From NCBI GenBank assembly GCA_948144175.1, contig CANXME010000217.1, positions 59,318 to 123,317 of the forward strand: 64,000 nt of DNA. The letters are read 5' to 3'. Made by a program: the position numbers and the translations under genes. This DNA is from Closterium sp. NIES-65. Its lineage: Eukaryota; Streptophyta; Zygnematophyceae; Desmidiales; Closteriaceae. This document shows positions 1 to 30,800 of the stretch, in pieces (within the stretch, counting starts at the first letter, position 1; each line of letters starts with the position of its first letter). The notes below the pieces were generated by a model. That model was not told where the DNA came from and made no database searches. It worked only from the letters and a program-made list of their open reading frames with translations.

Positions 1-279
1 AAATAGCCACAGTCAGGGGCTGATCTCCAGGGAGCACCCCCCGTTGCATCTCACTTCCCATACTCCGCGTCGCTTCACCTCGCAGCCGTCATTCTCATTT
101 CCGCGTGTCGCTCGCTTTCACCGATTCATCTCAGCTCTCCACGTTTCAACTTGCGGACTTGACGCGCCTCGACAGCCCTTCCAGTGCTAAACTCGACCAG
201 CGCTGTGAATCCGACGCTGCTTCAGTGGCAGGAAGACTCACCCAAACGAGTCATTACAGATTCGAACATCACGAATCCA
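1..279 (+). other. Upstream/5' leader of OXA2-like gene
   Basis: No coding feature is supported. The reading frame of the downstream gene is open from an ATG at 184, but the ATG at 280 begins a better mitochondrial presequence, so this stretch is taken as promoter and 5' leader. A CCAAT-type pentamer is visible near 276, but no TATA box is convincing. Confidence 0.4.
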
Positions 280-3200
280 ATGCCGTCACCGCTTCTCCTG
301 CGCCGCCTCTCCGCCCTTCGCCGCCGTTCCTCTCCCCACTCCCGCCTCCTGCCAGCTTTAATCTCTCACTCACCCTCCTCCGCCTCATCCTCCTCCTCAT
401 CCTCCTCCCTTCGTGCTTCTCACTTCTCCTCTCCCTCCTCTCCCTCCTTTGCTCGACTCACCTCTCCCGAACCTTCCATTTCTCGGATTTCCTCAACCCA
501 ATCCCCCTCTCCCGTGTCTGTCTCTCATTGGCCCTCCGTCTTTCCCTCACCCAACCGGCCACTTGACACGTCAGCAGCAGCCCCGTTGGTCGATTCGCCA
601 ATCCCATCCTCCAGCCAATCAGTGACGTGTCAAAATGCCACTGGTGCTTCCCTGCCAAGCCCATCAGTCATCAGGCCATCGTCGCCGTTCATCGGATCTG
701 CTGAGAACCAATCACTGTCCAGCCGAACCATTTTCAACCAATCACCGTCTAGCCAACCCCTGTTAAGCCAAGCACACCTACGGTTACGCTTCAGCTGTCA
801 CCTCTTATACAACTCCCACTTTGTACGCAGCTATCCGCCACACCACTACCTTCTAAGCACACGAGGATTCGCAAGTGACACGCTCCTGCCACTCCAAATC
901 GAAGCATCTGATAACAGATCGTCCCATAGCGAGTCCTCCTATAACGCATCAGAAGCAGCTGGCAACCACAGTATCACCACTCTAAACACCTGGGACCGTG
1001 ACTCAGAACCCCAGGAGCGAGGGTCAGGATTTGAAAGGTCTCAAGACTGGGTTCAGTGGAGGGGTGACGAAGCACACGCAGGGTCGTCAGGATCAGATTC
1101 TGATGGTTTGATAGACGCTGCAGCAGCAGTAGGCGCAGGGAGGGGGGGAGACGCAACAGGAGCAGTGGGAGCAGCAGCGGGGGCAGCAGGGTGGTTGGGT
1201 GGCTGGGCGTGGCTGGGTGTGCCTGTAGACGCTGTGACTCAAATGGTGTCCTCGATACAAGCCACCACAGGAGCCCACTGGTGAGACTCGCATTGCCTGA
1301 CAGTGTTCGCTTCTGAGTTGGAAGTTTCAAAACTCACCTGATTGCCCGACAATGCTCGTTCTTTTCTACGAATGAATCGACCGTCTTTTCTTCAGTAATG
1401 CCATGTTTTGAGTCGACTTAAAACTCGACTCAGTAATGCCATGTTTTGAGTCGACTCAAAACTCGACTCAGTAATGCCATGGCTTTTTAACGTTGCAAAT
1501 TGTCCGTTATGTACTTGTATGCTTTCTTTTCTTCTTTGCTCATGCACACACCCGCCACAATTTCTCTCTGTCATGCCAGGTGGCTCACGCTGATTGGCTC
1601 CACCCTCGCTCTCCGCCTGGCGCTCTTCCCCCTCACGTGGCATCAGATGAGCATCAGCTCCCAGCTCGCTGCCCTGGGACCCAAACGTATGTCACGTTCC
1701 CCTTTTTATCCAAGTGCGACTTAGGCACACTCTCTATAACTATAATCACCTGCCTCACTCTCTCCGCCTCTCACTCTTCCCCCTCACGTGGGTGGCATCA
1801 AATGAGCTACATCAGCTTGTAGCTCGCCGCCCTGGGACCCAAATGTATGCCGATTCCTCCTTCTATCCAGAAGTTTCTTTGACACACGCTCTTTACTCGC
1901 CCCGATTTACGCTCTTCCCCCTCACGTGGCATGAGATGAGCATCCGCTCGCAGCTCGCCGCACTGGGGCATACATACATGTACGCCACCCCCTCTTTTGT
2001 TTTCTCTTCTTAAACTGCATAGACACACAACTCTGCATTCCCCCGCCCCTCACACTCTCCCCCTCGCGCTCTTCCCCCTCACACTCTCCCCCTCGCGCTC
2101 TTCCCCCTCACGCTCTCCCCCTCGCGCTCTTCCCCCTCACGTGGCATCAGATCAGATGAGCATCAGCTCGTGGCTCGATGCCCTGGGACCCAAATGTACG
2201 CCGCATCGCTTTGCTGAATCATGCTTAAGTGAGGAGGAGGCAGGCCATGGCAACAAGCATGAGGTCGTTTTTGAGGCGCCTCAAAAACGACCTCAAGGAG
2301 GCAGGACAAATTTTGAGTCGACTCAAAAATCGACTTACTACACATGGCAACAAGCATGAGGTCGTTTTTGAGGCGCCTTTTGAGGCTTTTGAGGCGCCTC
2401 AAAAACGACCTCAAGGAGGCAGGGCATGGCAACAAGCATGAGTGCTGAAGCAGAGGCGTGGCGTGGGAGGAGAAGTAGGGCGAGCGAGCCACGTACGAAA
2501 TTTGAGGCGCCTCAAAAATCGTCTTAGGAGAAGTAGAGCGAGCCATGTACGAAAAGCCACGGGCGAGCCACCTACAAAAATCTCCTTTTCACGCACTCAC
2601 GCTCCTATCCTCCTGCCCCTCTCCCCATCCCCACCACTCTTCACCGCCCCTTCCTCGCCCCAGTGCCCCGCCCTTCCGTCTCCCCGGCAGTAACATGACA
2701 TGGCAGCAGGCGTGGGCCATGAGGCAGAGGAGGAGGAGAGTAGGGCAAGCCACGTACGAAAAGCCACGTGTAGAGAGGGTATTTTTGAGACGTGGTATTT
2801 TTGACACGTACAAAAACACCCTCTCTACACGGAGAGTTGGGCGAGCCACGTACGAAAATTTCCTGCTCACGCACTCTCCCTCCTGTCCCCCTCCCCCTCT
2901 CCCCTTCCCCTCCAGTGCCCCCTCCCTTCCCACTCCCCGGCAGTGGCATGACATGGCAGCAGGCATGGTCGCTGAGGCAGAGGAGGAGAAGGCGGACGAG
3001 AGGGGCGGGCCATGTACTGATCCCAACTCGTGCTGTTTCCCTCCTGTCCTCCTCCCCACCTCCCCGTCTCTCCCAGTGCCCCCGCCCTTCCCTCTCCCTG
3101 GCAGTGGCATGACATGGCAGCAGGCATGGGCGCTGAGGCAGAGGAGGAGGAAACAGTTGAACGCGCCCTCTGCGCTCTGGCTGCTCGCTGCTCCTGCTGT

Positions 3201-6200
3201 GCAGGTAGGGTGGAAGAAGGGTGAAGTGAGGGGGAGTGAGAGAGTGTGAGTAACGGTTGGTTGGTCCGCAGTGTGTGTGAGGAGAGCATGAGCGCTGAAG
3301 CAGAGGAGGAGAACACAGTTGAATGCGCCCTCCGCACAGCAGGAGCCGCGAGCAGCCATTCAACTGTTTACTCCGCACTCTGGCTGCTCGCGGCTTCTGC
3401 TGTGCAGGTAGGGCGGAAAAGCTGGGGCTGTGCTTTCTGTGGGAAAAATGGGAATATTGGGACAAATGTTGCTTTGAGTCAGTTGCTTCACACCCACCCT
3501 GTATGTAATGCTCTAGAACTGACTCAGTTGTCATCTCTGACCGTTCACTGTAATGGTTTGGTTTGTTTTTTCTTCTTCTTTTTAGGCGTTCAGTTGTCAC
3601 TATCCTGAGCAATCATTGTCACTTTCCTACCATAGGTATGCCACAGGATAGCACTCTTTTTCGCCTGGGTCTTCAACATTTGAAGCGCCTTAAGCACTTC
3701 TCCACTCCTTTCCACCCTCCCACTCATACCGCATTCCACCATATCCCACTCTTCTTCACCTGGATCTTCACATGGTCTTCCCTACCCCTTTGGGAAAGTA
3801 TTCACCCGTTCCCTCCCTCACTCCCACTGCTACCCCATGCCATGCCATCCCACCGCATCCCACCAGATCCCACTCTTCTTCACCTGGATCTTCACCATGC
3901 GTCACATGGCGCTATCAGCGCACCCAGGATTCGATGTGGTGAGTGGCAGTCTTCCCCATGTGTGTGTTCAAGTAGTAGCTTCAGCCTTCATGTGGTGGGT
4001 GTTATTGTTTGGATCTTCACCATGCGTCACATGGCGCTATCAGCGCACCCAGGATTCGATGTGGTGAGTGGCAGTCTTCCCCATGTGTGTGTTCAAGTAG
4101 TAGCTTCAGCCTTCATGTGGTGGGTGTTATTGTTTGGATCTTCACCATGCGTCACATGGCGCTATCAGCGCACCCAGGATTCGATGTGGTGAGTGGCAGT
4201 CTTCCCCATGTGTGTGTTCAAGTAGTAGCTTCAGCCTTCATGTGGTGGGTGTTATTGTTTGGATCTTCACCATGCGTCACATGGCGCTATCAGCGCACCC
4301 GGGATTCGATGTGGTGAGTGGCAGTGACTCCCATGTGTACGTTCATAGTTATTCGACTAAAAAATGCACTAGCTTGAGCCTTCATGTGGTGGGTGTTGTT
4401 TGGATCATCACCGCGCCGCACATTCCCTCGTGAAGCGAGGTTGTTTTTGAGACGTCTCAAAAACACTAGCTTGAGCCTTCATGTGGTGGGTGTTGTTTGG
4501 ATCATCACCGCGCCGCACATTCCCTCGTGAAGCGAGGTTGTTTTTGAGACGTCTCAAAAACACTAGCTTCAGCCTTCATGTGGTGGGTGTAGTTTGGATC
4601 ATCACCGCGCGTCACATTCCCTACTCGACACACCCAGCACTAGCTGGTTCAATCATTATAGCTGTTCAGTTCTCACTGCGGGATTACTTGGCTCACATAA
4701 CGTATCATCATGGTGGCATCCCGTGTTTTGAGACGACTCAAAGCGTGCCTCGCATTACGTGCCATCACGACGGCGGCCCCCTCATTGCCTATTTGCCTTT
4801 CAGTCAGGGCGGGGTGTCTCATCTGTGGTACAAGGATATCACATCTCCTATTTGCTTGTTTTCCCTAACAAGGATATCGCATCTCCTATTTGCTTGTTTT
4901 CCCTAACAAGGATATCGCATCTCCTATTTGCTTGTTTTCCCTAACAAGGATATCGCATCTCCTATTTGCTTGTTTTCCCTAACAAGGATATCGCATCTCC
5001 TATTTGCTTGTTTTCCCTAACAAGGATATCGCATCTCCTATTTGTGGTACAGGGATCTCGGATTTTTAGGACTTCACATCTCCTAACCCCCACAATCATG
5101 TGCTCCCTTTGCCCCTACCAGGGCGGGTGTCTGTGGTTCGAGGACCTCACAGCGTTCCCTCAAGGCGTGCTGGGTTGGGTCTTTCCCCTCTTCATCGCTG
5201 GATCATTCTACTCCTCGCTGCAGGTGCATTTGCTCTCTCTGACTTTCTCTGCTCTCTCTGTCTCTGTGCAAGGGCGTGTAATTGATGATGCCAATGCACA
5301 GGATGGGAATTGCGAGAAAGCAACTACAGCCAATTCACAGCCACTTCACTGCTGCTGCTCCCGTTGCCCTCCCTCTACCCTCTTCGTCTCTTCTTGTGCA
5401 AGGGCGCGTAAGTTATGATGCCGCTGCACAAAATGGGTGTTGCGTGCACCCACAGCAACTTTGCCATCTCATTCCCTGCCCCTTCATCCCCCACCCCGCC
5501 TTACGTATCCCTCTCCTTCTGCTCTCCTTGTCTCTCTCTGAGAAAGGACGCGTAGGTGATGATGCCGTTGCACAAAATGGGTGTTGCGAGCACCCACAGC
5601 CCTGCCATCTAACTCCCTACTTCACACCCCCCACCTTCCCCCCCACCCTCGCACGTTTCTCTCTCCCTCTCCTCTCCTTGTCTCTCTCTGTGCAAGGGCG
5701 TGTAGGTGATGATGCCGCGGCACAAGATGGGTGCACTCACCACAGCATCACCATCTTACCTTCCCTTCCCCACCTCCGTCTGCGTGCCCTCTCCCTGCTT
5801 CCTGTTCCCTCCCTCTGCTCTCCCTCTCTCTCTCTGTGCAAGGGCGTATAGGTGATGATGCCGCTGCACAAGATGGGTGTGCACACTGCGTCTGACAAGG
5901 CCATGCTGGTGAGGGGTGCTGAGTTGTGCTGAGGAGAGCTGCAGGGTGCTAAGGGGTGCTGGGCTGGGGTGCTGGTGGTGAGTGCTGAGGGGTGCCGGTG
6001 GCAGCAGGTGCTTAAGAATGACTGAATTATTCTTGTCAATGCTCATGCGTGTATTCTTTTGTGTGTGCTGAGCTTCACTCTTCATCTCCTTCCCCTTCTC
6101 TCGATCCACCCCCTCTTTTCATTCCCCCCCTTCTCCTCTCCTTCCACTTCCGTGACTCCCACAAAGCCTTCTGAAGCCTTCTGTAACTCCTCCTCTCCTC

Positions 6201-9200
6201 CCCATCCACTCCACCCATCTCATTCCCCTCAGTCCCCTTCCCTCCTCTCTCCCTCCCCCACCGTCACTCGGCCCTGCCCACCCACACCAGGCCTACCGAA
6301 CCTTCCTCGAATTCCTCACTCTCCCGACTCTCTATGCTGCACTCAACGTTCCCCAGGTGATTTTAATTTTGAGACGTCTCAAAACTACTCTTTCTACACG
6401 TGGTTCCTCCTCTCTCTCCCAACTCTCTATGCTGCACTCAACGTTCCCCAGCCCAGGTGACTATAGTCTATACCAGGTGATGCCAGCAACAAGTAACTGC
6501 AGCTTTCAAACTAGTCTTGAGGCGCCTCTGAACTAGACTCCTCTTGAATTCCTCACTCTCCCAACTCTCTATGCTGCACTCAACGTTCCCCAGGTAGTTT
6601 AGGAAATGACTGTTGGAGGTGATTGTAGCAGGTGGTTTCAGCAGGCCACTGGTTTGGGATGGTATGTTAGCGCAGGGGCAGCAGGGGCAGTGCGTTGGAT
6701 TGGGTGTTGTCCAACGCGCCTGTTAAGCCCCCACTACTGCATTTCAACCGAGGTGACTTTTGAGTCGACTCAAAAGTCATGGCAGGGGCAGCGCCTTGGA
6801 TGTTTGTCCTGTCATCATTGCACCCTCTACTGCTGGGATGTTGGATGTTGGGATGTTGGATGTTGGGATGTTGGATGTTGAGATGTTGGAATGTTGGGAT
6901 GTTGGGATGTTGGGATGTTGGGATGTTGGGATGTTGGGATGTTTTTGAGTCGACTCAAAAGCAGACTGCTGGGATGTTGGATGTTGGATGTTGGGATGTT
7001 GGGATGTTGGATGTTGGGATGTTGGATGTTGGGATGTTGGGATGTTGGGATGTTGGATGTTGGGATGTTGGATGTTGGGATGTTGGGATGTTGGGATGTT
7101 TTTGAGTCGACTCAAAAGCAGACTGCTGGGATGTTGGATGTTGGGATGTTGGGATGTTGGGATGTTGGATGTTGGATGTTAAGCACCCTCTACTGCATTT
7201 CAGCCGCTTCAACCTGTTTCACCTCTCTCCACTCCCCCTTACCCACAAAACCCCAGGCAGTGCACGTGTACTGGCTCACCAACAACACCTTCACTCTCGC
7301 TCATCATCATACCTGTTTATCCACCTCCACCTCTTTCTACCCCTCTTTAACTCGTTTCACTGTTGTCCACTCCTCCTTCCCCACACCCCAGGCAGTGCAC
7401 GTGTACTGGCTTACCAACAACACCTTCACTCTCGCTCAGGTGCCCACCCTACCCCTCTGCATCCCTTCCCATCATTTCCTTCACTCCCCCTCCCTTCACT
7501 TCCCATCCCTTCACCTCCCATCCCTACCTCTCCTGCATCTTCCCTTCCCATCCTTCCCATTCCTTCCACCCTTTTCGTCCCTTGCCATCTCTTTCCATCC
7601 CTTCTTATCCCATCCAATTCTTTCACCTACCTCGCCTTCCCATGTCTTATCGTCCCTTCCTTCTCATCCCTTGCCATCTCCTCCCATCCCTTCTCATGCC
7701 ATGAGATTCCTTCTCCTACCTTCCCTCCCATCCCTTCTCCTCCCTTCCCGTCCAACTCCTTCATCCCTCTCCATGCCACTGCACGCCCCTGTATCTCTCC
7801 TCCGCATGAATCTGTTGTTAAGCCATATAACCACCACACTGCACTGTTTTAAACCCCCCCTTATCCCCTGCCGCACCTCTGTATCCCCCCTCGCCCCTTT
7901 GCCTTGGCACTCCAGTTCCCTCATCCATTGCCTTCGCCTTGCCTTGCCTTGCCTCTCAGCTTTTGAGACGTCTCAAAAGTCATCCATTGCCTTCGCCTTG
8001 CCTTGCCTCTCAGCCTGCCCCCCATCGCACACCTGCATGCCATGCAGCATGAAGCCAGAACACCATCGTAGTGCACCGCTTTGAACCACTCTGTCCACAC
8101 TTCCTTCACTCCACTCTCCGCAGGCCTTGGCACTCCGGTACCCCACCATCCATCAAGCCGTAGGCCTGCCTGCCCACCATGGCACAGCTACAGGCCATTC
8201 AGCATTCAGCCATAGCACCTCGATGATGCACCGCTCTGAACCACTGTGTCTGTCTCCTGTTTCTCCCTTTTTCTCCCCTTATCCGCAGGCATTGGCTCTG
8301 CGATCCCCCACCATCCGTCAAGCCGTAGGTCTGCCTGCCCACCATGGCACAGCTACAGGCCTTGCACCGCTTGAAACCATTATGTCCCCGCTCTCCCCCT
8401 TTTCTCTCTCCCCTGTCTCCCCAGGCATTGGCACTCAGATCCCCCACCATCCGTCAAGCCTTAGGTCTGCCCACCATGGCACAGCTACAAGCCTTGCAGC
8501 AGCAGTATCACGCTCGGGCTGCTGCATCCTCTAGCCCTGCTGCTGCTGCGAATGGTGCTGGGAATGGTGATGCCACCAGTTTTGGAGGCGCGGGGAGTGT
8601 GGGGGGGTTGATATCAGAGCAGGAGATTGCGCGGATGACAAACCCACATACTTTGCTTGTGGTGAGTCCCTTTTGTGATTGGTTTGTAGGGGTCTAGGAA
8701 AAACTGTCGGTTGTGGGGTTCCCTTTTCTGAGAATCCCTTTTGTGATTGGTTTCCCTTTTCTCAAAAAACAGTTGTGGGGTTCCCTTTTCTGCACAACTG
8801 ACAGATCCCCATGGCTGATAGACGTTCCGAATGCACCTTTGCTTGTATAAGTCTGAAATTTTGAAACGCCAGGCATGAGACTGTAAGTATTATGGGACTG
8901 TATGGCCAAGAGGCCCTTTTAATTCCACTGATACTAATTTAGTCTTGAGAGACGTCTCAAAGTGACTTATAAGTCGACTCAGAAGTCGCCTAGATTATTA
9001 ATCATGCGGATGTTTTGTCTTTTAGTTGACTCAAAAGAGGTCGCCTATATTATTAATCTCGCGGATGTTTTCTTTTAGACGTCTCAGAACCATAGACATC
9101 GTGAGACACGAAACGCAATGCTTGCGACTGTACGGCCACAGTATACCTTACTAATTCTCTGCAAGATCTGGACTCCTGGTTGTAATTTGTGGAGCACCGC

Positions 9201-11998
9201 TCCTCCTGGCTGCTCACTTCACTGTTGAGGCGCCTCAAAAGTTATTAAGGGTATCGGGTCTTTTGCCAGTAAAGGGCCGTTTATTGTGCTCTTCTGCCGC
9301 CGTACTTAGTAACTTTGACTGTCAAATTCTTAACTGCCAGGATATCTTCTCTGTCATCCCCTTTATAACAGGCTGCAGCACAACTCAAGGCGGCAGGCAG
9401 CGTGGATCTAGCTGCTTGCGCTCTGAGGTGTGAAAGTTGGGGAAAATCTTGTCTGGTTTCCTCCGCTGGTATTATGTTTCCGCTAAAATCGAGGTGGTTT
9501 TTGAGATTATATTCCCTCAAAAACCACCTCCGCTGGTATCATGTTTCCGCTAAAATCTTGAGTGTGCATCCGTTGTTGCTGACAGCAACTTGCTGTCACA
9601 TGCCCACCTCACCTCACCCATGCCCTTCTTTAGCTGCTTGACGAATGTGTTTTGCAAGAATTCTCAAAAGACGCATTCAGCTTGTTGCCGCCACATGCCT
9701 ACCTGTCTCGTGTCATCCTTAGGCCACTTGTTTCTTTCTCTTGATGGCGTCGAAAGTACTTTCTTCCTGGCTTTTTTATCAGTGCAAACACGCTTCTATA
9801 TTTACATATTTTTTATGCCTGACTGACTCCGCTAAAAAATCTGGAGCACCAAAGTCTTTAAGCAACAAGTGTTTAGTGTCACGCTTTGCCTTTCTACATC
9901 TTCCAACCTCCTCCTTCCCGCCAGGCGTGTTCTGGAGATTGACCAATCAGCATCCTCTGCATGGCTGGGATTGGGTCAGATGCACAGCGGTGCAGGGCGG
10001 TGGGTGGAGGCAGCTGAATGCTTCTCCCAGGCAATAAACCACTCTAAGGTACTTGAATCCTTCAGAGGTGTTAGCTATCAAGGTTACATGCAATTGGGTC
10101 AGACAGACAGCGGTGCAGCGCGGTGGGTGGAGGCAGCTGAATGCTTCTCCCAGGCGATTAACCACTCCAAGGTACTTGCTTACTTACCCTCACCAGGCTC
10201 AGTGCTGAGGTCTATCATCCTCCTCCTCATCCTCATCCTCCTCATCCTCCTGCTCCATTCCTTTTTTGTGAAGGCCTTCCGCACTGCTTCGCACTTACAC
10301 CGTTTTCTTCTACCACATTCCCTGCAGGAGCGTCCTGACGTGGCAGTACAGCTGGCAGCTCACCTGGGCGCGGGTGTGGCATTGGCACAGCAGGTGGGTT
10401 GAGGTGAGGTAGGGGCATTGGTGCTGCAGTGCAGGTGGGGTAGGTTGTGGGTGCATTGGCACAGAATGTGGATTCCAGTGCTGGCACGTTGATTACATCC
10501 GGTCCTGTCTGTATGCACATGCACATGCACATGCACATGCACATGCAGATGCACATGCACATGCACATGCAGATGCACATGCACATGCACATGCAGATGC
10601 ACATGCACATGCACATGCAGATGCACATGCACATGCACATGCAGATGCACATGCACATGCACATGCAGATGCACATGCACATGCACATGCACATGCACAT
10701 GCACATGCACATGCACATGCACATGCAGATGCACATGCACATGCACATGCACATGCACATGCACATGCACATGCACATGCACATGCAGATGCACATGCAC
10801 ATGCACATGCACATGCACATGCACGTGAGAATCACAATTAGATTGATGGGAAGCCCATGAGGCATTCAAAAGTCACTTGGCTTCATTGCTAAGTGAAGAG
10901 AGGCCCAAGAGTTAGTGTTTCCATTGAGCAGAGCAGTCCTGCATTACACTGTCAACCCTCGCTCTCCTGCTCCATCCCTTCACCCCACCCCTCTCTCACA
11001 CAAAAGCCGTCCGTCAGAGGCCAAGGCACTGCTCCAGGTGGCAGCAGAGGCGGTGCTGGAGGGGGAGCAGAGGAGAGACCCTCTTAAACGCCACTCTTCT
11101 CTCTCCTCTTCACCTCCTCCCTTGCTTCGCTTCATCCCTCTTCATCCAGAGCTGTCCTTTGGAGGCAAAGGCGTTGCTGCAAGTGGCAGCAGAGGCGGTG
11201 CTGGAGGGGGAGCAGACGAGAGACCCTCCATCCACCCCCTCACCTCTTCCCTCGTTTTGTCGTGACTCCCTTCCCCTCTCCCCCAGAGCCGCCCTTTAGA
11301 GGCAAAGGCACTGCTGCAAGTGGCAGCAGAAACGGTGCTGGAGGGGGAGCAGAGGCGAGACCCTCTGAACCGCCGGCGACACGCACAGGCCATGCTGGCC
11401 CTCGCAAGGTAGTGTGGTAGCAGCTGATAAGAACGTGGAATGGGCTGTTTCTTGGCATAGTGTGACCCGCGGCCATGCTGGCCGTCGCAAGGTAGTGCTG
11501 TTGAATTTAATCTTTACAATCATTGCAATCCCGTGTGATGGATTATTTTTGCGGTAAGTTGTACCGAAATGTTTTTTATGCTCACAGGTCATGCTGAACC
11601 TTTCTCTCCTCCCCCTGCCTCTGACTTCCCCCTTTCCCATCCCATGCCCCTGCTCTCTCCTTTTTCCATCCCCTCCCTCCCCTGCTCCCCCGCCTCATTC
11701 CCTGTTCTTCCCCAGCCTTTTGAGCACAGAGGGAAACCGCAGGGAGGCGAGAAAGTGGGTGGGAGCAGCTGCAGACCATGATCCTTCTGTGCTTTTGTGT
11801 TGACTCAAAACACTTCTACCCCGTTCTCCCTTCTCCCTCAGCCTCTTGAGTGCAGAGGGAAACCGCAGGGAGGCGAGGAAGTGGGTGGTAGCAGCAGCAG
11901 ACTACGACCCTTCTGTGCTGGATACATTCGGACAGGAGCTTGAGGGAGAGGGGGAGGAGGAGAAGGGCGTGGTGCAAGGGAAAGGGGGGGTGGTGTAA
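280..11998 (+). CDS. OXA2-like mitochondrial membrane insertase with C-terminal TPR region (multi-exon)
   Basis: Oxa1/YidC/Alb3-family insertase, expected in the mitochondrial inner membrane. Plant OXA2-type proteins, which carry C-terminal TPRs, are linked to cytochrome oxidase assembly. Exons read: 280-1280 (Arg/Ser-rich presequence starting MPSPLLLRRLSALRRR, ending in a family-like TGAHW), 1580-1686 (first membrane helix, LIGSTLALRLALFPLTW), an exon ending at 3204 or 3407 (ALWLLAAPAVQ), 3867-3938 (MRHMALSAHPGFDV), 5122-5223 (GCLWFEDLTAFPQGVLGW), 5852-5908, 6291-6356 (FLEFLTLPTLYAALNVPQ), 7392-7439 (VYWLTNNTFTLAQ), 8425-8661, 9372-9427, 9925-10048 (TPR, AWLGLGQMHSGAGRWVEAAE), 10328-10393, 11287-11408, 11842-11998 (stop). 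Phases agree from 3867 onward and between exons 1 and 2; the exon 2/3 junction is unresolved. An in-frame ATG at 184 is an alternative start. Nearly every exon has decayed tandem copies beside it. Confidence 0.82.
1396..1482. repeat. Tandem pair of palindromic elements (GTCGAC centre)
   Basis: Two copies of a unit containing TTTTGAGTCGACTCAAAA (perfect at 1444-1461, one base changed at 1406-1423). Both are followed by ctcgactcagtaatgccatg, so the palindrome and its flank were duplicated together. It lies in the intron after OXA2 exon 1. Confidence 0.85.
1580..2205 (+). repeat. OXA2 exon 2 and three decayed tandem copies
   Basis: The intact exon (1580-1686) is followed by copies near 1768-1843, 1905-1975 and 2115-2200. 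All keep the stretch encoding FPLTWHQMS and most keep a CCCTGGGACCCAAA end before a gt-like donor. The later copies have indels and lack a good acceptor. The last is preceded by three copies of a short tctccccctcgcgctcttcc unit. They look like decaying exon duplicates, not alternative exons. Confidence 0.8.
2255..2530. repeat. Cluster of GGCGCC/GTCGAC palindromes with direct repeats
   Basis: A perfect 34-base palindrome lies at 2261-2294 (left half gaggtcgtttttgaggc). A GTCGAC-type copy follows near 2311-2330. A second copy of the first palindrome near 2361-2410 contains an internal duplication. A shorter GGCGCC one lies near 2500-2520. The sequence ggcaacaagcatgaggtcg is directly repeated before the two large palindromes and again, shortened, after the second. 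Confidence 0.85.
2690..3410 (+). repeat. Tandem copies of OXA2 exon 3
   Basis: Blocks near 2690-2760, 2937-3000 and 3100-3204 share ggcagtggcatgacatggca followed by gctgaggcagaggaggag; the block at 3287-3407 shares only the later part. Only the last two finish with the ALWLLA segment and a gtaggg donor. Aligned to the family, RQRRRKQLNAPSALW in the 3100-3204 copy is the most OXA2-like, so that copy is my preferred functional exon. Confidence 0.65.
2767..2831. mobile_element. Long-armed foldback element, candidate full-length member of the palindrome family
   Basis: Left arm 2767-2787 and right arm 2811-2831 are inverted copies with one mismatch in 21. Each arm joins CGTGTAGAGAGGGT to a TTTTTG tract. 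The loop holds gacgtggtatttttgacacg. Other palindromes in the window keep only one outer arm, for example tctttctacacgtgg at 6391-6405, 22337-22350 and 38093-38107. This copy therefore probably approximates an intact element. No protein is encoded. Confidence 0.6.
3743..4330 (+). repeat. 125-bp tandem array containing OXA2 exon MRHMALSAHPGFDV
   Basis: ggatcttcaccatgcgtcac recurs at 3886, 4011, 4136 and 4261, an exact 125-bp period with very few differences. Only the first copy has the upstream acceptor (exon 3867-3938). Each later unit repeats the exon body and its gtgagt donor. A partial copy without the exon body lies at 3743-3785. High identity suggests recent expansion. Confidence 0.9.
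4366..4660. repeat. 97-bp units separated by GACGTC palindromes
   Basis: cactagcttgagcc (third copy cttcagcc) starts at 4367, 4464 and 4561. The junctions between units are the palindromes at 4444-4463 and 4541-4560 (tttttgagacgtctcaaaaa). Each unit also holds a weak copy of the preceding exon (atcaccgcgccgcacattcc). The palindrome marks the unit boundary exactly. Confidence 0.9.
4832..5059. repeat. 38-bp minisatellite, six copies
   Basis: aaggatatcgcatctcctat recurs at 4832, 4870, 4908, 4946, 4984 and 5022, a strict 38-bp period. It is intronic, just before OXA2 exon 5122-5223. The repeats are contiguous with no variable spacers. Confidence 0.9.
5260..5908 (+). repeat. Five tandem copies of OXA2 exon 5852-5908
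   Basis: gatgatgccgctgcacaaaatggg-like blocks, each preceded by a pyrimidine tract and a gtgcaagggcgt-like lead-in, occur near 5262, 5390, 5545, 5696 and 5840. Only the last continues into HTASDKAML and a gtgagg donor in phase 0 with its neighbours, so it is taken as functional. Confidence 0.7.
6291..6600 (+). repeat. OXA2 exon 6291-6356 and two copies with palindromes between
   Basis: The exon encoding FLEFLTLPTLYAALNVPQ is repeated near 6412-6452 and 6543-6592. Between copies one and two is a GACGTC palindrome (6367-6385) followed by the outer arm tctttctacacgtgg. Between two and three is a GGCGCC-type imperfect palindrome (about 6508-6537, cttgaggcgcctctg). Each copy is followed by caggtg- or caggtag-like donors. 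Confidence 0.85.
6750..7185. repeat. GGGATGTTGGAT minisatellite interrupted by two palindromes, with a third before it
   Basis: About 300 bases of ggatgttg units, alternately 8 and 9 bases long. The array is cut twice by the same tttttgagtcgactcaaaag cassette (6944-6963 and 7098-7117), each followed by cagactgctgggatgttgga, so cassette and flank were copied as a block. A 26-base palindrome (6754-6779) precedes the array. Repetitive peptides read here are spurious. Confidence 0.9.
7248..7439 (+). repeat. OXA2 exon VYWLTNNTFTLAQ in two copies
   Basis: The first copy (about 7256-7303) has the acceptor but its donor has become gctcatcat. The second (7392-7439) keeps both cag acceptor and caggtg donor and is the likely functional exon. 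The intervening intron is also duplicated. Confidence 0.8.
7922..8014. repeat. Direct duplication with a palindrome exactly at the junction
   Basis: catccattgccttcgccttg...tctcagc is present at 7922-7960 and again at 7981-8014. The only sequence between the copies is ttttgagacgtctcaaaagt (palindrome 7961-7978). This is the cleanest single example of duplication plus palindrome. Confidence 0.9.
8116..8661 (+). repeat. Three tandem copies of OXA2 exon 8425-8661
   Basis: RSPTIRQA-encoding starts lie near 8124, 8290 and 8425, each after a cag acceptor. The first two have an extra 4 bases (tgcctgcccacc for tgcccacc) that throw the frame and they lack donors. The third is open to a gtgagt donor and encodes a polar, Ala/Gly-rich linker after the last membrane helix. 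Confidence 0.8.
8940..9240. repeat. Decayed palindromes and a 60-bp direct duplication
   Basis: gtcgcctagattattaatca...gcggatgtttt (about 8985-9020) recurs near 9041-9078 with ttgactcaaaagag between. GACGTC-, GTCGAC- and GGCGCC-type remnants lie near 8945-8960, 8970-8985, 9073-9090 and 9224-9240. Intronic in the OXA2-like gene. Confidence 0.65.
9460..9557. repeat. 31-bp direct repeat flanking a perfect 15-bp-arm hairpin
   Basis: cctccgctggtattatgttt... is at 9460-9490 and again, with one difference, at 9527-9557. Between them gaggtggtttttgag (9491-9505) pairs with ctcaaaaaccacctc (9516-9530) around a 10-base AT-rich loop. The end of the right arm is itself the start of the second direct repeat, so stem and duplication are linked. 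Confidence 0.9.
9925..10172 (+). repeat. OXA2 TPR exon and partial copy
   Basis: Exon 9925-10048 is followed by a copy of its second half at 10096-10172 (RWVEAAECFSQAINHSK repeated, same gtactt donor). The copy lacks the first helix and an acceptor. Confidence 0.8.
10512..10825. repeat. ATGCAC/ATGCAG hexamer satellite
   Basis: About 50 hexamers of atgcac with a phased atgcag every third to eighth unit. Intronic. The higher-order 24-bp period (three atgcac plus one atgcag) in the left part shows expansion of a compound unit. Peptides of repeated His-Met or Cys-Met are artefacts. Confidence 0.95.
11005..11408 (+). repeat. Three tandem copies of OXA2 exon 11287-11408
   Basis: EAKALLQVAAEAVLEGEQRR-type blocks begin near 11008, 11150 and 11287. 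The first two are cut after GACCCTC and lack the RRHAQAMLALAR end and donor. The third is complete and phased with its neighbours. Confidence 0.8.
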
Positions 11999-12410
11999 GG
12001 AAGGTGTGTTTGGCTCGACTACAAAGCTGGGCAAGGAGGCAGGGAGGCGAGAAAGTGGGTGGTAGCAGCAGCAGACTATGACCCTTCTGTGCTGGACACG
12101 TTTGGTCAGGAGATTGAGAGAGAGGGGGAGGAGGAGGGGAAGGGCGTGGTGCAAGGGAAGGGGGGAGTGGTGTAAGGAAGATGCATTTGGCTCGACTTAG
12201 GTAAGAGAGTGGGTGGCAGCCGGTGCAGACTACGGCCCTTCTGTGCTGTACACGTTCACAGGGGAGCTTGAAGGCGAGGAGGAGGAGGGGGCGTGGTGCA
12301 ATGGAAAGGAGGGGGTGTGTGAGGGCAACACCCTGGCTCTGAAGTGGGTGGCAGCCGGTGCAGACTACGGCCCTTCTGTGCTGTACACGTTTACAGGGGA
12401 GCTTGAAGGC

Positions 12411-12487
12411 GAGGAGGAGGAGGAGGAGGAGGAGGAGGAGGAGGAGGAGGAGGAGGAGGAGGAGGAGGAGGAGGAGGAGGAGGAGGG
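12411..12487. repeat. (GGA)n microsatellite
   Basis: About 25 uninterrupted gag/gga triplets inside a duplicated terminal exon; in the exon frame they extend a natural Glu run to poly-Glu. Confidence 0.95.
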
Positions 12488-12636
12488 GTGTGCGGTGCAA
12501 GGAAAGAGGGGAGTGGTGTAAGGAAGCTGCTTTCAGCTCGACTATAAACTTGGCGAGGCAAGGAGGCCAGAAAGTGGGTGGCAGCAGCAGCAGATTACCA
12601 TGACCCTCTTGTGCTGGACATGTTTTGGTCCGGAGC

Positions 12637-12662
12637 TGTATTTTGAGGTGCCTCAAAATACA
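12637..12662. repeat. Near-perfect palindrome between duplicated terminal exon copies
   Basis: tgtattttgaggtgcctcaaaataca carries one central mismatch (GGTGCC). It lies between two copies of accatgaccctcttg...catgttttggtccggagct (about 12598-12636 and 12697-12736). The outer TGTA/TACA bases differ from stems elsewhere. Confidence 0.85.
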
Positions 12663-12789
12663 CCTCGATGCTCGCGGGTGGCAGCAGCAGCATGTTACCA
12701 TGACCCTCTTGGGCTGAACATGTTTTGGTCCGGAGCTTGTGGGAGCGGAGACAGGGGGGCTGGTGCAAGGGAAGTGGGGAGGTCCTCCC

Positions 12790-15213
12790 CACACTGAACA
12801 AATGCCACTCTCACCACTCCTATCCAAGCAAGCGTTGCTGTCTCTTTAGGCAACTAATCAAATAAAGGACTTTATTTGGCCTTCTCTTTTGGAGTGAACC
12901 AGGTTGTAAAGAATTTCACAGGAAGCAACTGTCAGTTATTTTGCGACTCCCTCCCTATAAGAATCTACGGTGCAAACGTGCTGTTTCTCCCACCACTTCC
13001 GCACGGCCCGTTCCCCTGCCACTCCCTCCCTCCACTCCACTTCTCACAATATCCCCCTGTCAGAATGAGAACTACAGCGGAATGCGTTGTGTTGACAGAA
13101 TTGGGGTACATCACCTAACCCTAACTAGTTGAACCCCAGATAGCCCAACCCACTACAGGCTATAATATTTGACACCCCCCCACCCCCAAGATTGATTTCT
13201 CTTGCCGCGTCACACTCATCCACACTAAGTCCCCAAGCCTCACCTCTATGCCCCACCCCCCCCCCCGTCCCAAGTCCAAATGTTTCTTTGCAACCCCTTC
13301 CAGCCCATATTTTTCTACTCCCTTCATCTCGCTACCCCCCACCCAATGCTCGCCTGTCCCTCCAAAACAAGCCAGTGATTAACACAGTAACGCAGGAGAA
13401 AAAGCAACCTGTCACTGAGTAATCACAACAAGATTGCTACACCATGGACCACATACAAAGTTATTGAGTGTTTTGATTGCACGGGAGGCCGACAGATGTC
13501 ACTTCAAATAGTCGATCAAAAAGCGCACATGAAAAGAAGAATTGGAGACTGTTTGCATCATCTCAATTAACGTTGATCGATTCAGAGAGTTCAAGTGTAC
13601 TATTATGCAGCGGAGTTTCACATCCTGACTTGCCAACGCAAAACGCTGTTTGCGATTGACAGCTGTCGATTGGGTCTGCAGATTTCATTTGTGGGCTCGG
13701 TGTGCACCAACGGAAATCATACAGGATGGGATGGGATGCAATGCAACGGTGGGATGGGATGGGATTCCCCCTGTCACAAGACGGATTCTCACATACTTGT
13801 CCTACATTGCTTGAGCAGTCCTTTTGTTTTTTGTTTTGAAGCCACCCTGTCAGGCAGGTGAAATAATCTTTGATGGGGCAGGGTCTTTTGGGAATTCATT
13901 CGAAAGATGCTAGGTAGGGTTCCAGCCCAGGGGAGTCCCAAATCCTATATCATTTGTTGTTTCTAGCCAAATGTTCTACAACGAGCAACAACATCCCAAG
14001 CACCCCCGGTGCTCCTTCCACTGCAAATAAAATGGGTGACGCTCGACTGGTCAGAACCCAGGACATCAGTGTCCCCGCCGGGTGATAGCTAGAATGCTCT
14101 TCCACTGCCGAAGTACAAAATACCCCCCAGATCCGATTGCGCATAAGGAGATTATTCCGACAGTGGCAGGGTCGGAATTAAACACTTTCAATATCACTCG
14201 GCAAATAATGATTGAACCACCATATTATCGAATGGTGGGTATATAGTTCTGAAGAGAGGCAAAGTTTGTTGCTCCACATCGCCGCCAGTTGCACGGATGC
14301 AGGGGTTCGATGATTTGGTCATTTGACGAGGTTTCCCATGATTCTTCGCACCTGCTTCTCACGGTTGGTCCCGCCAATGGGATTCGAATTGAATGCTAGG
14401 CTGCGAACAGCTGTTGCCTGAACACTAATCTCTCACAATCTTGGCCCACCAGCATGCTTCTTGGCAGGAAAGGAATGCATGGTCAAGGTTGCTGTCATAA
14501 GGCTGGGATGGATAGGACTGATGCTCTACAGTTTACTGTGACCAAGTGCACAACAGCCTTCTCCTGATGTACTACCAGCTTGACCTCAGGCGGGAGGCTG
14601 TTCTCATATTTCCCATGAACCTCGGACACGTAAACGGATCCCACAAGGGGTCTGCTGCACTCAGTTTCGGGTCGTTGACCCCCATTTCGGTGCAGAAAAT
14701 GTGACTGAGAGTGTTGAATACATACTGAGATCCGTTCAAGTAACTACGCCCAATTGAATGGCGCGCAGCAATGCCATTCGTGTTCTCTCAGTGGAGATTG
14801 GCGGGCAGCCCTGCCACTGCATCAAATCGGTTCCCTGATTTTCTCGAACCCAAGCCGATTTTACCAGCCGTTTTCCAGCCATGACGGAACGGTGGTGGTG
14901 GAAGTTCCCCCAGTTGTCGTTGCTCTTGCGTGGCCCCACGCTCAGCTCAAGCCAGAGTCCCTCTCCCTCCTTCCCCCGTTATTTCTCCAGCTTGCCGTTC
15001 CAGCCTCTCTCTACCTTTCTCACATTCACCCCCACTCGTACCAGTTCAAGCACACACGCTTCAAACCTACAGTATCCCTTCTCAGCCCTCACTCCTCGCA
15101 CTGGTTTCCTCTTCTTACCTGCAGTCTCACTCAAGTAACTTCTCTTCCCCTTCATTCTAGCCCTCGGTTACCTCTCTAAAGCGTGATAAGCGCAGATTTA
15201 ACAGAAAGCCATC
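12790..15213. other. Intergenic region, OXA2-like to bZIP
   Basis: No supported gene. It should hold the 3' end of the OXA2-like transcript and the bZIP promoter and 5' leader. 13180-13340 is C-rich, and 14930-15180 is pyrimidine-rich just before the bZIP ATG. On the minus strand around 14040-14112 an A-box-like string (cagtggaagagcat) and a weak B box (gggttctgacc) could be a decayed tRNA or tRNA-derived SINE, too degraded to call. Confidence 0.4.
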
Positions 15214-16578: not shown

Positions 16579-16639
16579 TACACGAGTGTTGCATGGAAGC
16601 GGGGCACTCAGCTGATTGCTAACCAATTGTGCTTGTGAT

Positions 16640-17024
16640 CTTAAAGCCCGCAGCCCAAGTTGTTCAACCTTACTAAGGTTGACCATTGGGTGGTGGGGGA
16701 GGTGGAGAAAGAATAGTCGAGGTGTTGGGGGGGTGGGTGTAGTTGGTTTCGCCCAGATTTTCGCCACGCTTTGTTTTTCTTGCTGACACAGCAAACACCA
16801 GGGGCCAGCTCGTGTTCAGTTGCGAGAGTCCCATGTTGCACAGAATAATATTGAAAGTTTCCCCCTGCTCACGTTTCGCGAACTCAGTGGAAGTGCGCTG
16901 GCCAATCAGATTTCTTCTCACAATCCGTAACCCTAGTTCGTGCAAGAAAGAAACCCAAAGCAACCCTCGATCAAGAATAGTAAGGTTGACCAGCGCGACC
17001 CGCAACTTGGGCCGCGGGCTTTAA
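16640..17024. mobile_element. piggyBac-type MITE: TTAA target site and inverted repeats
   Basis: 385 bp bounded by TTAA at both ends (16640-16643, 17021-17024). The terminal inverted repeats are agcccgcagcccaagttg on the left and its complement with one change (cAGc to cGGc) on the right. A second inverted match, caaccttacta, lies inside each end. There is no transposase; the interior is unique. The TTAA duplication and TIRs fit a non-autonomous piggyBac-like element inserted just 3' of the bZIP gene. Confidence 0.7.
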
Positions 17025-17600
17025 ATGACGATTTCACTTGCGAAGTGATCAACTAGCGGTGCTCATTGATTTAATCCTCGTTGTCCATTATCGGAGCGGG
17101 GGTGATGGGCTTTCTAGTGGTAAATATAAGTTCCCAGCCTTTCATTTGAAGCATAGTTGAAAAATTACCGCGAGCAGAAATGTTGAGCTGAACTTTCCTA
17201 ATTAGTTTCTACCGAAACAGTGTAGTTATGTGTTCGATTTTGTTTGTGTAAACTTGGGTGAAGGAGGCGAAACGGCGCATTTCCCACCACACACGGCGAA
17301 TTTGATCTCCTTGAAACGCGACTCGGCGTTTCACAACAAGCGGCGCGTAAATCTGCGAAGACGAAACGGCACAAAATTTCCACCCAACCTTGGTCGCACA
17401 GCTCCTGCCTCCACCTCAATGCCACAGAACAGAACCCTCTACTACGCCTGTGATTCAAATAATCCCCTCTTCATCTTCAGAGTCTAGAGCGTCTGACTGA
17501 GAGCGCATAGGAATTTGCGGCATCAATCACTTGCATCGAAGCAGCAATACAGAATTATTTCTCCGAATTTAGTCAATTTTCCTGTGATTAGTAGTTCAAT
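17025..17600. other. Intergenic/promoter and 5' leader of AGC kinase gene
   Basis: No ORF with family similarity. Moderately AT-rich, as expected for a promoter. The mRNA leader must end at the ATG at 17601. No named element is recognisable. Confidence 0.35.
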
Positions 17601-27147
<9,547 letters not shown>

Positions 27148-27741
27148 ATACCAAGTTAGCAACTCACAGCAGAGAGGACTTTTGAGTCGACTCAAAAGTC
27201 ACCTCTGTTTGAAGGGTTTGTGTTCAGCCCGACCAAGAAGAGCACTGCAACAAGCCCTTCTGTGGTGTAGACAACAGAACCTAGCAGCATCAGGGATGGA
27301 TCCGCTGGACAACTCTCTGAAGGGTTTGTTGTGTTCAGCCGGACCAAGAAGCACGGTGCAACCGGTCCTGCGTTGTAGACAGCAACTCACAGCAGAGAGG
27401 ACTAACAACATCAGGAGATTTTCCATACCGTATTGTATTTAGTTTGTAGTGAGTAGAATACTAGGTACGTCAAACTGTTATGCTATGCATGCTTGATTAA
27501 TTTTTTCATGAATGGCAATAATGTACATACAACAGCTGCCATTGTGATACATCGCACTGTACATGTGAAAAACAAACTTTATTATGCACCTGCCGCACTA
27601 CTGGCACCCTGGGGTAGCTGGCAGCTAGCCAGGTCTTTAGGGATCTTCCTAGCAGGCAAATAGGCAAAAGATACGCTTGCAGAAGGAAGACCAAGTCATG
27701 TGTATGACTGGTATAGGAAGCAGAAAAGAAGGAAGCAAGAA

Positions 27742-27742
<1 letters not shown>

Positions 27743-27786
<44 letters not shown>
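27743..27786. repeat. (CAG)n microsatellite
   Basis: About 14 triplets between the convergent kinase and transporter genes. Confidence 0.95.
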
Positions 27787-27790
<4 letters not shown>

Positions 27791-27845
27791 CTTGTGTCAG
27801 CAGCTCTTTGCCAGAGAAAAGTCCCCCAACAAACTGTTCTAAAGC

Positions 27846-30800
27846 TTAGAGCTCCTTGCTCTTCTTAGTCGCAGCAGCAGGAGAGGGAGCAGCGGAGGAG
27901 GAGTAGAGGTAGGTGCTAAGGACGGTGAGGGGGAGGGCCAGCCACACAAAGAGGGAGGGAGGTGTGCCGTCGAGAGCATACTGCACTATGGCGGTTACCA
28001 CCAGACCGGCTATCACTGTGAACCCCTGCGAGAGGGAAGGAGCAAGGAGGAAGGAGGGTTGTGGGAGTGAGAAAGGGAGAAGTTTCAAGGTGTTTTGGAG
28101 AGAGAGCAGCAATGGGTGGAAGTGCCATCCAGATGAAGAGAGAGGGAGGCGTGCCGTCGAGAGCATACTGCACTAGAGGTTACCAGCAGATCCGCTATCA
28201 CTGTGAAACCCTGTGAGGGAAGGAGTGTGGGTTGAGAGAAGGGACGAGCAGCATGGGGAGAGGAGGGGGTGGGGGGGGGGGGAGAGCAGCATGGGGAGAA
28301 GAGGGGGTGGGGGGGGGGAGAGCAGCATGGGGAGAAGAGGGGGTGGGGGGGGGGGAGAGCAGCATGGGGAGAAGAGGGGGTGGGGGGGGGAGAGCAGCAT
28401 GGGGAGAAGAGGGGGTGGGGGGGGGGAGAGCAGCATGGGGAGAAGAGGGGGTGGGGGGGAGAGAGCAGCATGGGGAGAAGAGGGGGTGGGGGGGGGGGAG
28501 AGCAGCATGGGGAGAAGAGGGGGAGGGGGGGGAAGAGCAGCATGGGGAGAGCGGCATGGGGAGAGCGGCATGGGGAGAGCGGCATGGGGAGAGCGGCATG
28601 GGGAGAGCGGCATGGGGAGAGCGGCATGGGGAGAGCGGCATGGGGAGAGGCGTGCCGGTTACCAGCAGACCGGCGGTTACCAGCAGACCGCCATGCCGTA
28701 GAGTCGAGAGCATACTGCAGTATGGCGGTTACCAGCAGACCGCCATGCCGTAGAGTCGAGAGCATACTGCAGTATGCTGGTTACCAGCAGACCGTCTGGA
28801 TGGGCTGGTTCTATGGCTTTGAATGAAAGATCCTAGACTATTATGGTGGCATGAATACAGTAGGAAAGAAATCCCCACAACCCAGTGAACCCTCTTATGA
28901 CACCCGCCCCGCCTCCACCACCTATCCCCTCCCCCAGCATACCTTCTTAACGCCCCCTGCATATTTGGTCACAAGCCCCACAAGAATGCCTCCTATGGCG
29001 TTTGATAGAGCTGGAATCTGGGGGGTGGGGTGGGGCGTGGGGTTGGGGTTGTGGGGGGGGAGAAGGGGGTGTGTGTGGGGGTTGGGGTAGGGGTGAGAAG
29101 TAGAAGGCATATTTGGTCACAAGCCCCACGAGGATGCCCCCTATGGCGTTTGACTGAGCTGGAATCTGGCGGGTGGCGATGAGGTGGGATAGGGATGGGG
29201 TTAGAGCGGAAGCGAGGATAAGGGTAGGGGTGGGCAGGAAAAGGCATGCTTGTGCACAAGGCCTACGAGGGTGCCCTCTATGGCATTTGACCGAGCTGGA
29301 ATCTGGGGGGTTGGGGGTATAGCGATATTGAGAATGGGCAGGGTTCAGCTCCCATGCGATCGAAGTTTGAGTTTTGAGGCGCCTCAACAGTTGAAAGTGG
29401 GAATGGGTGGGAATCCACTCGCATGCGAGAGAAGTCCTGGGAGGAGAGGAGGGAGACGGGGAGCAGTGATAGCACCGCACGGCGCACAGTAGTGAGTCAG
29501 AGTCGCGATTGGCATGGCAGGATGAATGCATTGAGGTGTATTTTGAGGCGCCTCAAACTACACAGCGCACGGTAGTGAGTCAGAGTCGCGATTGGCAGGA
29601 TGAATGCATGCTGACTCATTATGGCGAGGGGCGTCCAGGCGTGGAAGAAGCCGGGGCGCAACATGCGAGCAGCAGCGTCTTGGAAGGAGAGGATAGGAAC
29701 AGTGATGTGCATGCATGATGGTGCACGCACAGTGGCAAGAAAGGGGAGCAAGCACGACTTGATGCTTCTTACGATGGTGAGTGGCGTCCATGCGTGGAAG
29801 AAGCCGAGTTGCAACATGCGGGCGCCGTCTTGGGAAGTGAAGAGAGAGACGAGCAGGACGAGGGACGTGAGGGAACACATCTCGATGGTGAATAGATGTG
29901 GGCTGCGCCTCTTGACCTGCACCGAGACAAGACCAGACGAGACAAGGGGAAAGAGCTGAATGATGAGACGCCAGGACAAGACAATACCACCACCCCCCAC
30001 GCACACATGTAATGAGTCGAGTTTTGAGACGGCTCAAAACTCGACTCATTACACACGAGTCGGCTCAAAACTCGACTCATTACACACGATTCGACTCGAA
30101 ACTCGACTCATTACACACGAGTCGGCTCAAAACTCGACTCATTACACACGATTCGACTCGAAACTCGACTCATTACACACGAGTCGACTAAAAACTCGAC
30201 TCATTACACGCAGACGCCAGGACAGGACAATACCACCACCCCCCACGCACACACCTGCACTTGCCACTGGTTGTGCGTTGATCCCAGCCCAGAGGTCACA
30301 GACGCCACCAGCACCGGCACCACTCCCAGCGCCACTCTCTCCCAGGCCACGCCTGCTGCTACAATAGCCGCCGCCGCAGCAGCAGTGGCAGCCGCGCCAG
30401 CAGCCATAGATGGCGGCGCCTCCCCTGCTGCACTCGCTCCGTGAGTCTGGCCAGGTTTAGGCCCCGGACCAGAAGCAGGGCCTGGGCTGAGGGTGAGTAG
30501 CGTGGCGGCGACGAGCAGCATGCAGAGGGCGACGATCTGCACCCGGGTCTGGCGGATTCTGTGATGAGAAGTGAGACAAGACAGGAGGGGAAAAGGTTCA
30601 GAGGAATAGGTTGAGAGGGTGGGAAGGAACAACGGTCGTTCGTTTGCTCTCACTCCGTTTCTTCCCTCGCAGCGACGAGCAGCAGGCAGAGAGCGATGCT
30701 TTGCAGTCGGGTCTGGCGGATTATCACCTCTTTCCCACCTTCACTCATTCCTTCTTACCCGAGAAAGAAGTAGTTGGACAGGTCCGAGAAAAGAAGCTTC

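Follow-up and report, generated by a model that had tools for sequence, protein, structure and literature searches.

What leaves a short palindrome at the joint between two direct copies of the same local DNA? The question is raised by a 64,000-nucleotide stretch of Closterium sp. NIES-65 (contig CANXME010000217.1; hereafter ‘the window’, to which coordinates refer unless preceded by the name of a locus), in which a first-pass annotation described this arrangement—here abbreviated X-P-X, for a palindrome (P) between two direct copies (X) of local DNA—at nine places. We find that the palindromes form one dispersed family with co-varying arms, a kept centre and, in its family A, sharp ends, and that the copies flanking them are long and variable, without a border motif over the 40 sites compared; two sites have relatives that lack both the palindrome and the second copy, and one array has expanded later. 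Our preferred explanation, which we think probably but by no means certainly correct, is that a discrete mobile hairpin was caught in long-staggered breaks, which were then closed by fill-in and end joining.

Beginning at the core, 24 of the 29 perfect palindromes in the window with arms of at least 7 bases contain the sequence TTTTGAG-NCGN-CTCAAAA, as do 74 of 82 with arms of at least 8 in a larger, non-redundant sample of 204 kb (4 kb of that N). The counting set comprises the window and 14 of 20 loci (L016–L035) chosen by their match to window 4300–4700, a choice that enriches them for the family A described below; the near-duplicates L017, L024, L028, L030, L031 and L034 were left out. Within the 204 kb, TTTTGAG and CTCAAAA occur with exactly four bases between them at 72 sites, all other spacings from 0 to 15 accounting for three sites together; the four-base centre is itself self-complementary in 66 of the 72 (1 in 16 by chance), as ACGT (32), TCGA (28), GCGC (4) or AATT (2). 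A subfamily close to TTTTTAGGCGCCTAAAAA, in which GAG/CTC has become TAG/CTA on one or both sides, was seen at L016:7160, L026:2832 and L032:2488. The window holds 45 family sites at up to three mismatches—the finder's mismatch counts cannot be compared across centres of different type (an exact TCGA core scores 2), and no result relies on them—which fall into successive 8-kb bins as 15, 7, 5, 12, 6, 0, 0 and 0; the last 24 kb (40000–64000) thus contain no family palindrome at this threshold. Several stretches of that final part are 74–90% similar to other loci.

Genome-wide, a single variant of the core, TTTTGAGTCGACTCAAAA, is found at 13,080 exact places and its reversed control at none, the search space being the 874-Mb assembly in 2400 contigs of which the window is one part; this genome size, together with genes of nuclear type (judged by reading), places the family in the nucleus. 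These numbers bear directly on the suggestion of the first-pass annotation that the palindrome is built on the spot, by template switching or fold-back of the flanking DNA. In its favour, palindrome and duplication do seem to come together, and DNA polymerase theta (Pol theta) is described, in the accessible part of the source, as extending stem-loops from two terminal base pairs (PMC11292364); against it stand the one core at thousands of places and arms that recur at many loci. Because the palindrome sequence is shared among sites we find such local construction scarcely credible, and at 27180 the right arm is a common family arm and not a copy of the left flank. A spill-over of palindromic repeats from an organelle, as proposed for nuclear copies in Volvox, would bring in palindromes of similar size and form; there, however, the nuclear copies are rare and inert according to the part of that report available (PMC2670323), whereas here there are thousands with flanking duplications, and we allow this origin a very slight chance. 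A viral source was also considered and dropped: viral contigs gave no match for a 24-mer and four for an 18-mer, near chance by a rough estimate. The Rfam search returned only a tRNA (RF00005), which lies at 23940–24013 (+ strand) and is flanked by exon-like parts of a kinase-like gene (the gene judged by reading).

Moving outwards from the core, the arms group into families, mostly complementary between left and right; the arms common to many loci read ACGTGAAGCGAGGTTGT in family A, GAGGTGAC in family C and (CGTG)TGTAATGAGTCGAG in family D, and further families exist. The inverted repeat reaches about 52 bp and is often cut to about 20; a full family A element is represented by a 52-bp palindrome in L018, with a DNA fold of −28.9 kcal/mol (z −12). 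Family A has sharp ends, ACGTG/CACGT, beyond which the DNA differs from place to place. In 17 long-armed elements, which were selected for pairing, both sides have changed in 12 of 21 arm pairs (against a mean of 9.0 after shuffling, with 13 of 500 shuffles attaining as many), and the covariation score is 0.508 against a shuffled 0.139 (reached in 0 of 500); among 107 unselected elements, the five arm positions next to the core pair in 40–64%, against 28–34% expected.

The way in which the elements are shortened is equally characteristic. At least one full arm is retained in 19 family A elements (two of them in one locus), the other arm being full or nearly so in 8 and cut to 1–9 nt in 11. Lone halves were sought for five families and are absent except in head-to-tail arrays (L016, L032 and window 30064–30210) and in two palindromes with altered centres (L018 5195 and window 2765), a third centre, at window 9491–9526, having been replaced. 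Similarly, all 131 pairs of inverted core half-sites lying 159–9000 bp apart in the window and 14 loci resolve into two separate, complete palindromes, so that no longer element with internal sequence was found there (a transposase was not searched for). Since lone halves are nearly absent and every long-spaced pair is two complete palindromes, the centre is nearly always kept whilst the open ends, either or both, are trimmed. The arrays have their own anatomy: at L032 3676–3945 the 17-bp half-element GAGGTGACTTTTGAGTC, or close variants of it, is repeated head to tail with no mirrored halves, by slippage or rolling copying, and at L016 5077–5400 each 31-bp unit consists of the left arm plus the centre.

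Two explanations based on familiar elements can be weighed against this pattern. The remnant of a terminal-inverted-repeat (TIR) DNA transposon—either a minimal miniature inverted-repeat transposable element (MITE) or an excision footprint—would account for the inverted repeats and for the sharp end in family A; in the window and 14 loci, however, no copy with internal sequence was found, and the flanking copies run from 11 bp up to 124 bp. The absence of a target duplication of one fixed length speaks against ordinary TIR transposition, and we judge a remnant of this kind highly improbable. Dedicated retro-insertion, in which a tiny non-autonomous retroelement would be inserted by target-primed reverse transcription using an enzyme like those of long interspersed nuclear elements (LINEs) or Penelope, has several points in its favour: target duplications that vary in length, sharp element ends and the one-sided truncation of 11 of the 19 family A elements. 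Against it, the inserts listed have no tail, the 40 sites, whose borders are blurred by microhomology, share no border motif, and truncation strikes either or both ends but hardly ever removes the centre, as 5′ truncation often should; we consider it unlikely.

The association between palindromes and flanking duplications does not depend on the places first named. Defining a core as ‘hugged’ when direct repeats of score at least 40 lie no more than 35 bp away on each side, 74 of 121 cores qualify in the 15 loci, against 227 of 2040 random spots; as arrays weigh in this figure we also give the isolated cores, of which 27 of 46 are hugged. In 37 X-P-X anatomies the copies measure 20–124 bp, the inserts 18–78 bp and the identities between copies extend from 100% down to 76%; with the shortest copy of all, 11 bp and exact (L042, by eye), the range becomes about 11–124 bp, bearing out the original remark that duplicated lengths vary widely, unlike the fixed target duplications of transposons. 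Because L016–L035 are not a random set, we took in addition the first nine isolated exact-core sites of the genome list (L036–L044; two other contigs, 4.5 kb in total), which, though picked by core alone, do not sample the genome at random either: by alignment or eye, direct copies flank every one of the nine, and seven pass the strict rule, compared with 152 of 1506 control spots. The two that fail are L038, which is repeat-rich, and L043, a three-core array between 54-bp copies; L042 passes solely through a gapped alignment of 65% identity. Over 40 sites we detect no motif at the borders (largest chi-square 12.2 across 40 columns), the borders being blurred by microhomology, which at the few joints read by eye amounts to 0–5 bp: 3 bp at L044, 1 bp at L039 and L040, 0 at one side of L041 and 5 bp at L020:5609.

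Within the window, the nine named loci were re-measured, and in each the direct copies of local DNA lie on either side of a palindrome belonging to the one family; the start of the range given by the first-pass annotation (about 2255–2404) is not a clean X-P-X. The loci include 7921–8014 (X1 7921–7960; palindrome 7961–7979, both arms trimmed; X2 7980–8014; 88% with a gap), where the right junction has TCA in common with the family C arm as read from the sequence; 9460–9557 (X1 9460–9490; the palindrome with the replaced centre, 9491–9526; X2 9527–9557; 97%); 12576–12737 (X1 12576–12637; insert 12638–12675; X2 12676–12737; 94%); and 29478–29609 (X1 29478–29531; palindrome 29532–29560; X2 29561–29609; 87%). 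At 4367–4622 the pattern is X-P-X-P-X, with copies at 4367–4444, 4464–4541 and 4560–4622, the first two 100% identical, and cores at 4445–4462 and 4542–4559, in which the left arm is full (allowing one mismatch) and the right arm cut to 4 nt. Larger arrays occupy 20531–20800 (four X units; palindromes 20579–20596, 20654–20671 and 20729–20746) and 25931–26910 (112-bp units; eight palindromes, some with mismatches, with cores from 26015 to 26816). A less exact case is 27083–27271 (X1 27083–27148; core 27180–27197 with a family C right arm; X2 27203–27271; 82%), where X1 stops 31 bp before the core on the left. At 29967–30253 the copies (X1 29967–30007, X2 30213–30253; 98%) enclose not a single palindrome but a head-to-tail array of 31-bp element units (30008–30212), grown from a 46-bp palindrome at 30008–30053 whose four-base centre, ACGG, is not symmetric. 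The description of the palindromes as sitting ‘exactly’ at the junctions thus holds to within 0–17 bp per side at most of these loci, but not at 27083 (the 31 bp just given) nor at the third core of the 20531 array, where the gap, inside the array, is 78 bp. Further examples, absent from that description, are 6313–6451 (X1 6313–6356; core 6367–6384 with a long right arm; X2 6408–6451) and, beyond its range, 38004–38149 (X1 38004–38045; a long-armed palindrome around 38070–38087; X2 38108–38149); at 1406–1481 there are palindromes at 1406 and 1444, the second with a 20-bp direct copy around it.

Did the palindrome and the second copy arrive together? As the first-pass annotation had proposed, empty sites with a single X and no palindrome were sought, here among related loci, and such sites exist: of 124 X-P-X sites (many redundant or in arrays), a relative without the insertion was found at three distinct loci only. 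The closest comparison is between L021:5189–5343, which consists of a 66-bp X, a 23-bp insert and a second X, and its relative L028, which has a single X and no palindrome there; identity over the joined site is 99%, and another palindrome just upstream is common to both. The same state, a single X with no palindrome, is seen in further repeats of the same gene (L021 4780–4926 and three in L028) and speaks for the single X as the ancestral form. In the window, the unit adjoining and paralogous to 12576–12737, at 11973–12167, likewise lacks the palindrome and carries X only once (77.9% identity), and for 4367–4622 the 125-bp units at 3912–4282 provide a third, weaker case (67% identity). With relatives of this kind for two sites, the most likely reading, already favoured at the outset, is that one event yields both the palindrome and the duplication. 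A possible difference in presence between L020:7894 and L031 was set aside on account of messy repeat borders.

The opposite order, in which old palindromes provoke tandem duplication alongside by stalling replication or by being cut as cruciforms, gains something from the fact that palindrome-containing units do change in number; yet in an isolated X-P-X a single palindrome separates the two copies, and for two sites there are relatives that carry X once and lack the palindrome, so we give it little credence. The change in unit number is best seen against contig C38, a second copy of most of the window's DNA (98–99.8% identical in the four largest aligned pieces) and, given that vegetative Closterium cells are haploid according to the available part of the genome report (PMC10407611), probably a duplicated segment rather than an allele. 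Where the window has four X and three palindromes at 20531–20800, confirming the count first given, C38 has two X and one palindrome, from which we take the extra units to be secondary. Across the aligned segments 1–13275, 13384–20460 and 21069–54695 no palindrome site has been gained or lost; only repeat-unit counts differ. Other differences between the two copies include a 38-bp tandem repeat at 4830–5044, with more units in C38, and small changes in length within a long GGGA-rich repeat tract at 32270–33160. C38 also carries about 13 kb of extra DNA between 13275 and 13384, which resembles a long-terminal-repeat retrotransposon in its 429-bp direct repeats and its long reading frames; it holds no core and was rejected as a source of the palindromes. 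As for kinship beyond this strain, the best matches of a bZIP gene at 15214–16575 come from Closterium sp. NIES-54 (77% identity, covering 74% of the query) and, at 57%, from NIES-68, which identifies the organism as a Closterium, a zygnematophyte alga.

Of the options offered by the first-pass annotation, an element with a target duplication of variable length fits best, and the capture of a mobile hairpin in staggered breaks describes how such an element might work. Each palindrome would be a copy of a short mobile element, too small to contain a gene, which adopts a hairpin fold; the intermediate may be a discrete molecule of single-stranded DNA, or of RNA copied into DNA. A break with nicks in opposite strands some 10–120 bases apart would catch the hairpin between its two ends, nucleases would trim the hairpin's open ends while the loop—the centre—survives, and end joining, with the short microhomologies noted above, would attach it; fill-in of the overhangs would then copy the DNA between the nicks to give X-P-X. 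A free, trimmed hairpin and a long stagger would together explain the variable copies, the trimmed ends, the kept centre and the missing border motif. Known enzymology appears to fit: in the accessible part of the source, breaks with overhangs give rise to small tandem duplications when they are filled in by CST-Pol alpha and end-joined (PMC8355091), and the extension of stem-loops by Pol theta would be compatible with capture as well.

Several observations weigh against hairpin capture or loosen the tie between palindrome and duplication. Arm positions 6–12 pair little above expectation in the 107 unselected elements; at 46 of the 121 cores no hugging repeat scores as high as 30; and the age of the X copies correlates weakly with the decay of the palindrome (rho 0.35, p 0.095, n 24). 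The single X of L028 is a hybrid of the two variants in L021, and for this pair alone a loss by slippage is therefore possible. Among 64 young direct-repeat pairs, a recognised palindrome lies within 18 and none within 46, so that duplication looks common here without one; at least 7 of the 46 are family members missed by the pattern, and the fillers of the remainder include many further copies of X and some unrelated DNA. With duplications lacking a recognised palindrome outnumbering those that have one, the palindrome's part in the process may be incidental: such repeats fit a general duplication process in which the hairpin is possibly a frequent passenger. Finally, a filler that recurs requires a large pool of hairpin molecules, and that pool is an assumption of the model. 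By reading, introns at 8105–8500, 11000–12300, 20820–21420 and 25080–25380 contain decayed copies of neighbouring exon pieces, which suggests that gene DNA is generally prone to tandem duplication here, with or without palindromes.

A bolder form of hairpin capture, which we offer tentatively and doubt somewhat more than we credit, would make the family a coding-free, selfish nuclear DNA that transposes by exploiting break repair. Hairpins no longer than 52 nt would be captured in staggered breaks with long filled-in duplications, and their symmetry would be maintained by the two halves being re-copied from each other during movement, whether by snap-back or by one half priming on the other at the self-complementary centre (CG or AT). 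If so, a selfish hairpin may give rise to the partial copies of exons, and to the repeat arrays, with which the introns of this lineage are bloated. Confirmation would mean that a hairpin without coding capacity can multiply in nuclear DNA while generating long target duplications of variable length, and would link intron growth in algae closely related to land plants with insertions of this kind. Work on short tandem duplications and templated insertions mostly treats them as scars left by repair at cut sites; thousands of natural sites marked by the same molecule would make break spacing, trimming and joining readable genome-wide.

How, then, does this family compare with known systems? MITEs and other TIR transposons are short, non-coding, present in high copy number and bounded by inverted repeats, all of which recalls the Closterium palindromes, but their target duplications are short and fixed whereas the copies here span 11–124 bp. 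Short interspersed nuclear elements (SINEs) and other LINE-mobilised sequences have the variable target duplications and the truncation found in Closterium; unlike them, the inserts listed here have no tail, are palindromic, and are trimmed at both ends with the centre kept. The Closterium palindromes thus fail one defining feature of each class. Small tandem duplications have reportedly been obtained by Schiml and colleagues (2016) from the repair of staggered breaks or paired nicks. In the duplications at staggered breaks of PMC8355091 the length is set by the overhang, as proposed here, and amounts to tens of bp, but the part of that paper available describes no recurrent mobile palindrome at the joint. 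The Closterium copies agree with such duplications in being tandem, tens of bp long and variable in their borders. The symmetrical stwintrons of Hypoxylaceae are, as far as the accessible text goes, also spreading symmetrical sequences with inverted halves, but are introns without flanking duplications (PMC8469720), and the REP palindromes of bacteria are short (20–40 bp) and dispersed, but prokaryotic, tagged by GTAG or CGTC, and presented in the opening of the abstract without mention of flanking duplications (PMC3733652). A literature search over titles and abstract openings, with most subscription journals outside its coverage, returned no description of such an element, and the main text of the Closterium peracerosum complex genome paper contains ‘palindrom-’, ‘inverted repeat’ and ‘hairpin’ zero times each (PMC10407611). 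The nearest published kin would appear to be the palindromes of Volvox carteri organelle DNA: in the available portion of that paper these are about 50 nt long, fall into many related classes, occupy introns and intergenic DNA and are thought to be selfish, with hairpin loops of 3–5 nt such as TTTA/TAAA and nuclear copies called inert, and no duplication is mentioned in that text (PMC2670323). Repeats of the Volvox type resemble the Closterium family in size (palindromes of 10–100 nt) and in their related classes; the noncoding position of the Closterium palindromes was judged by reading the window only. They differ in being organellar, with loops of the TAAA/TTTA type, whereas the Closterium family is nuclear, is built around an NCGN centre and stands between long flanking duplications.

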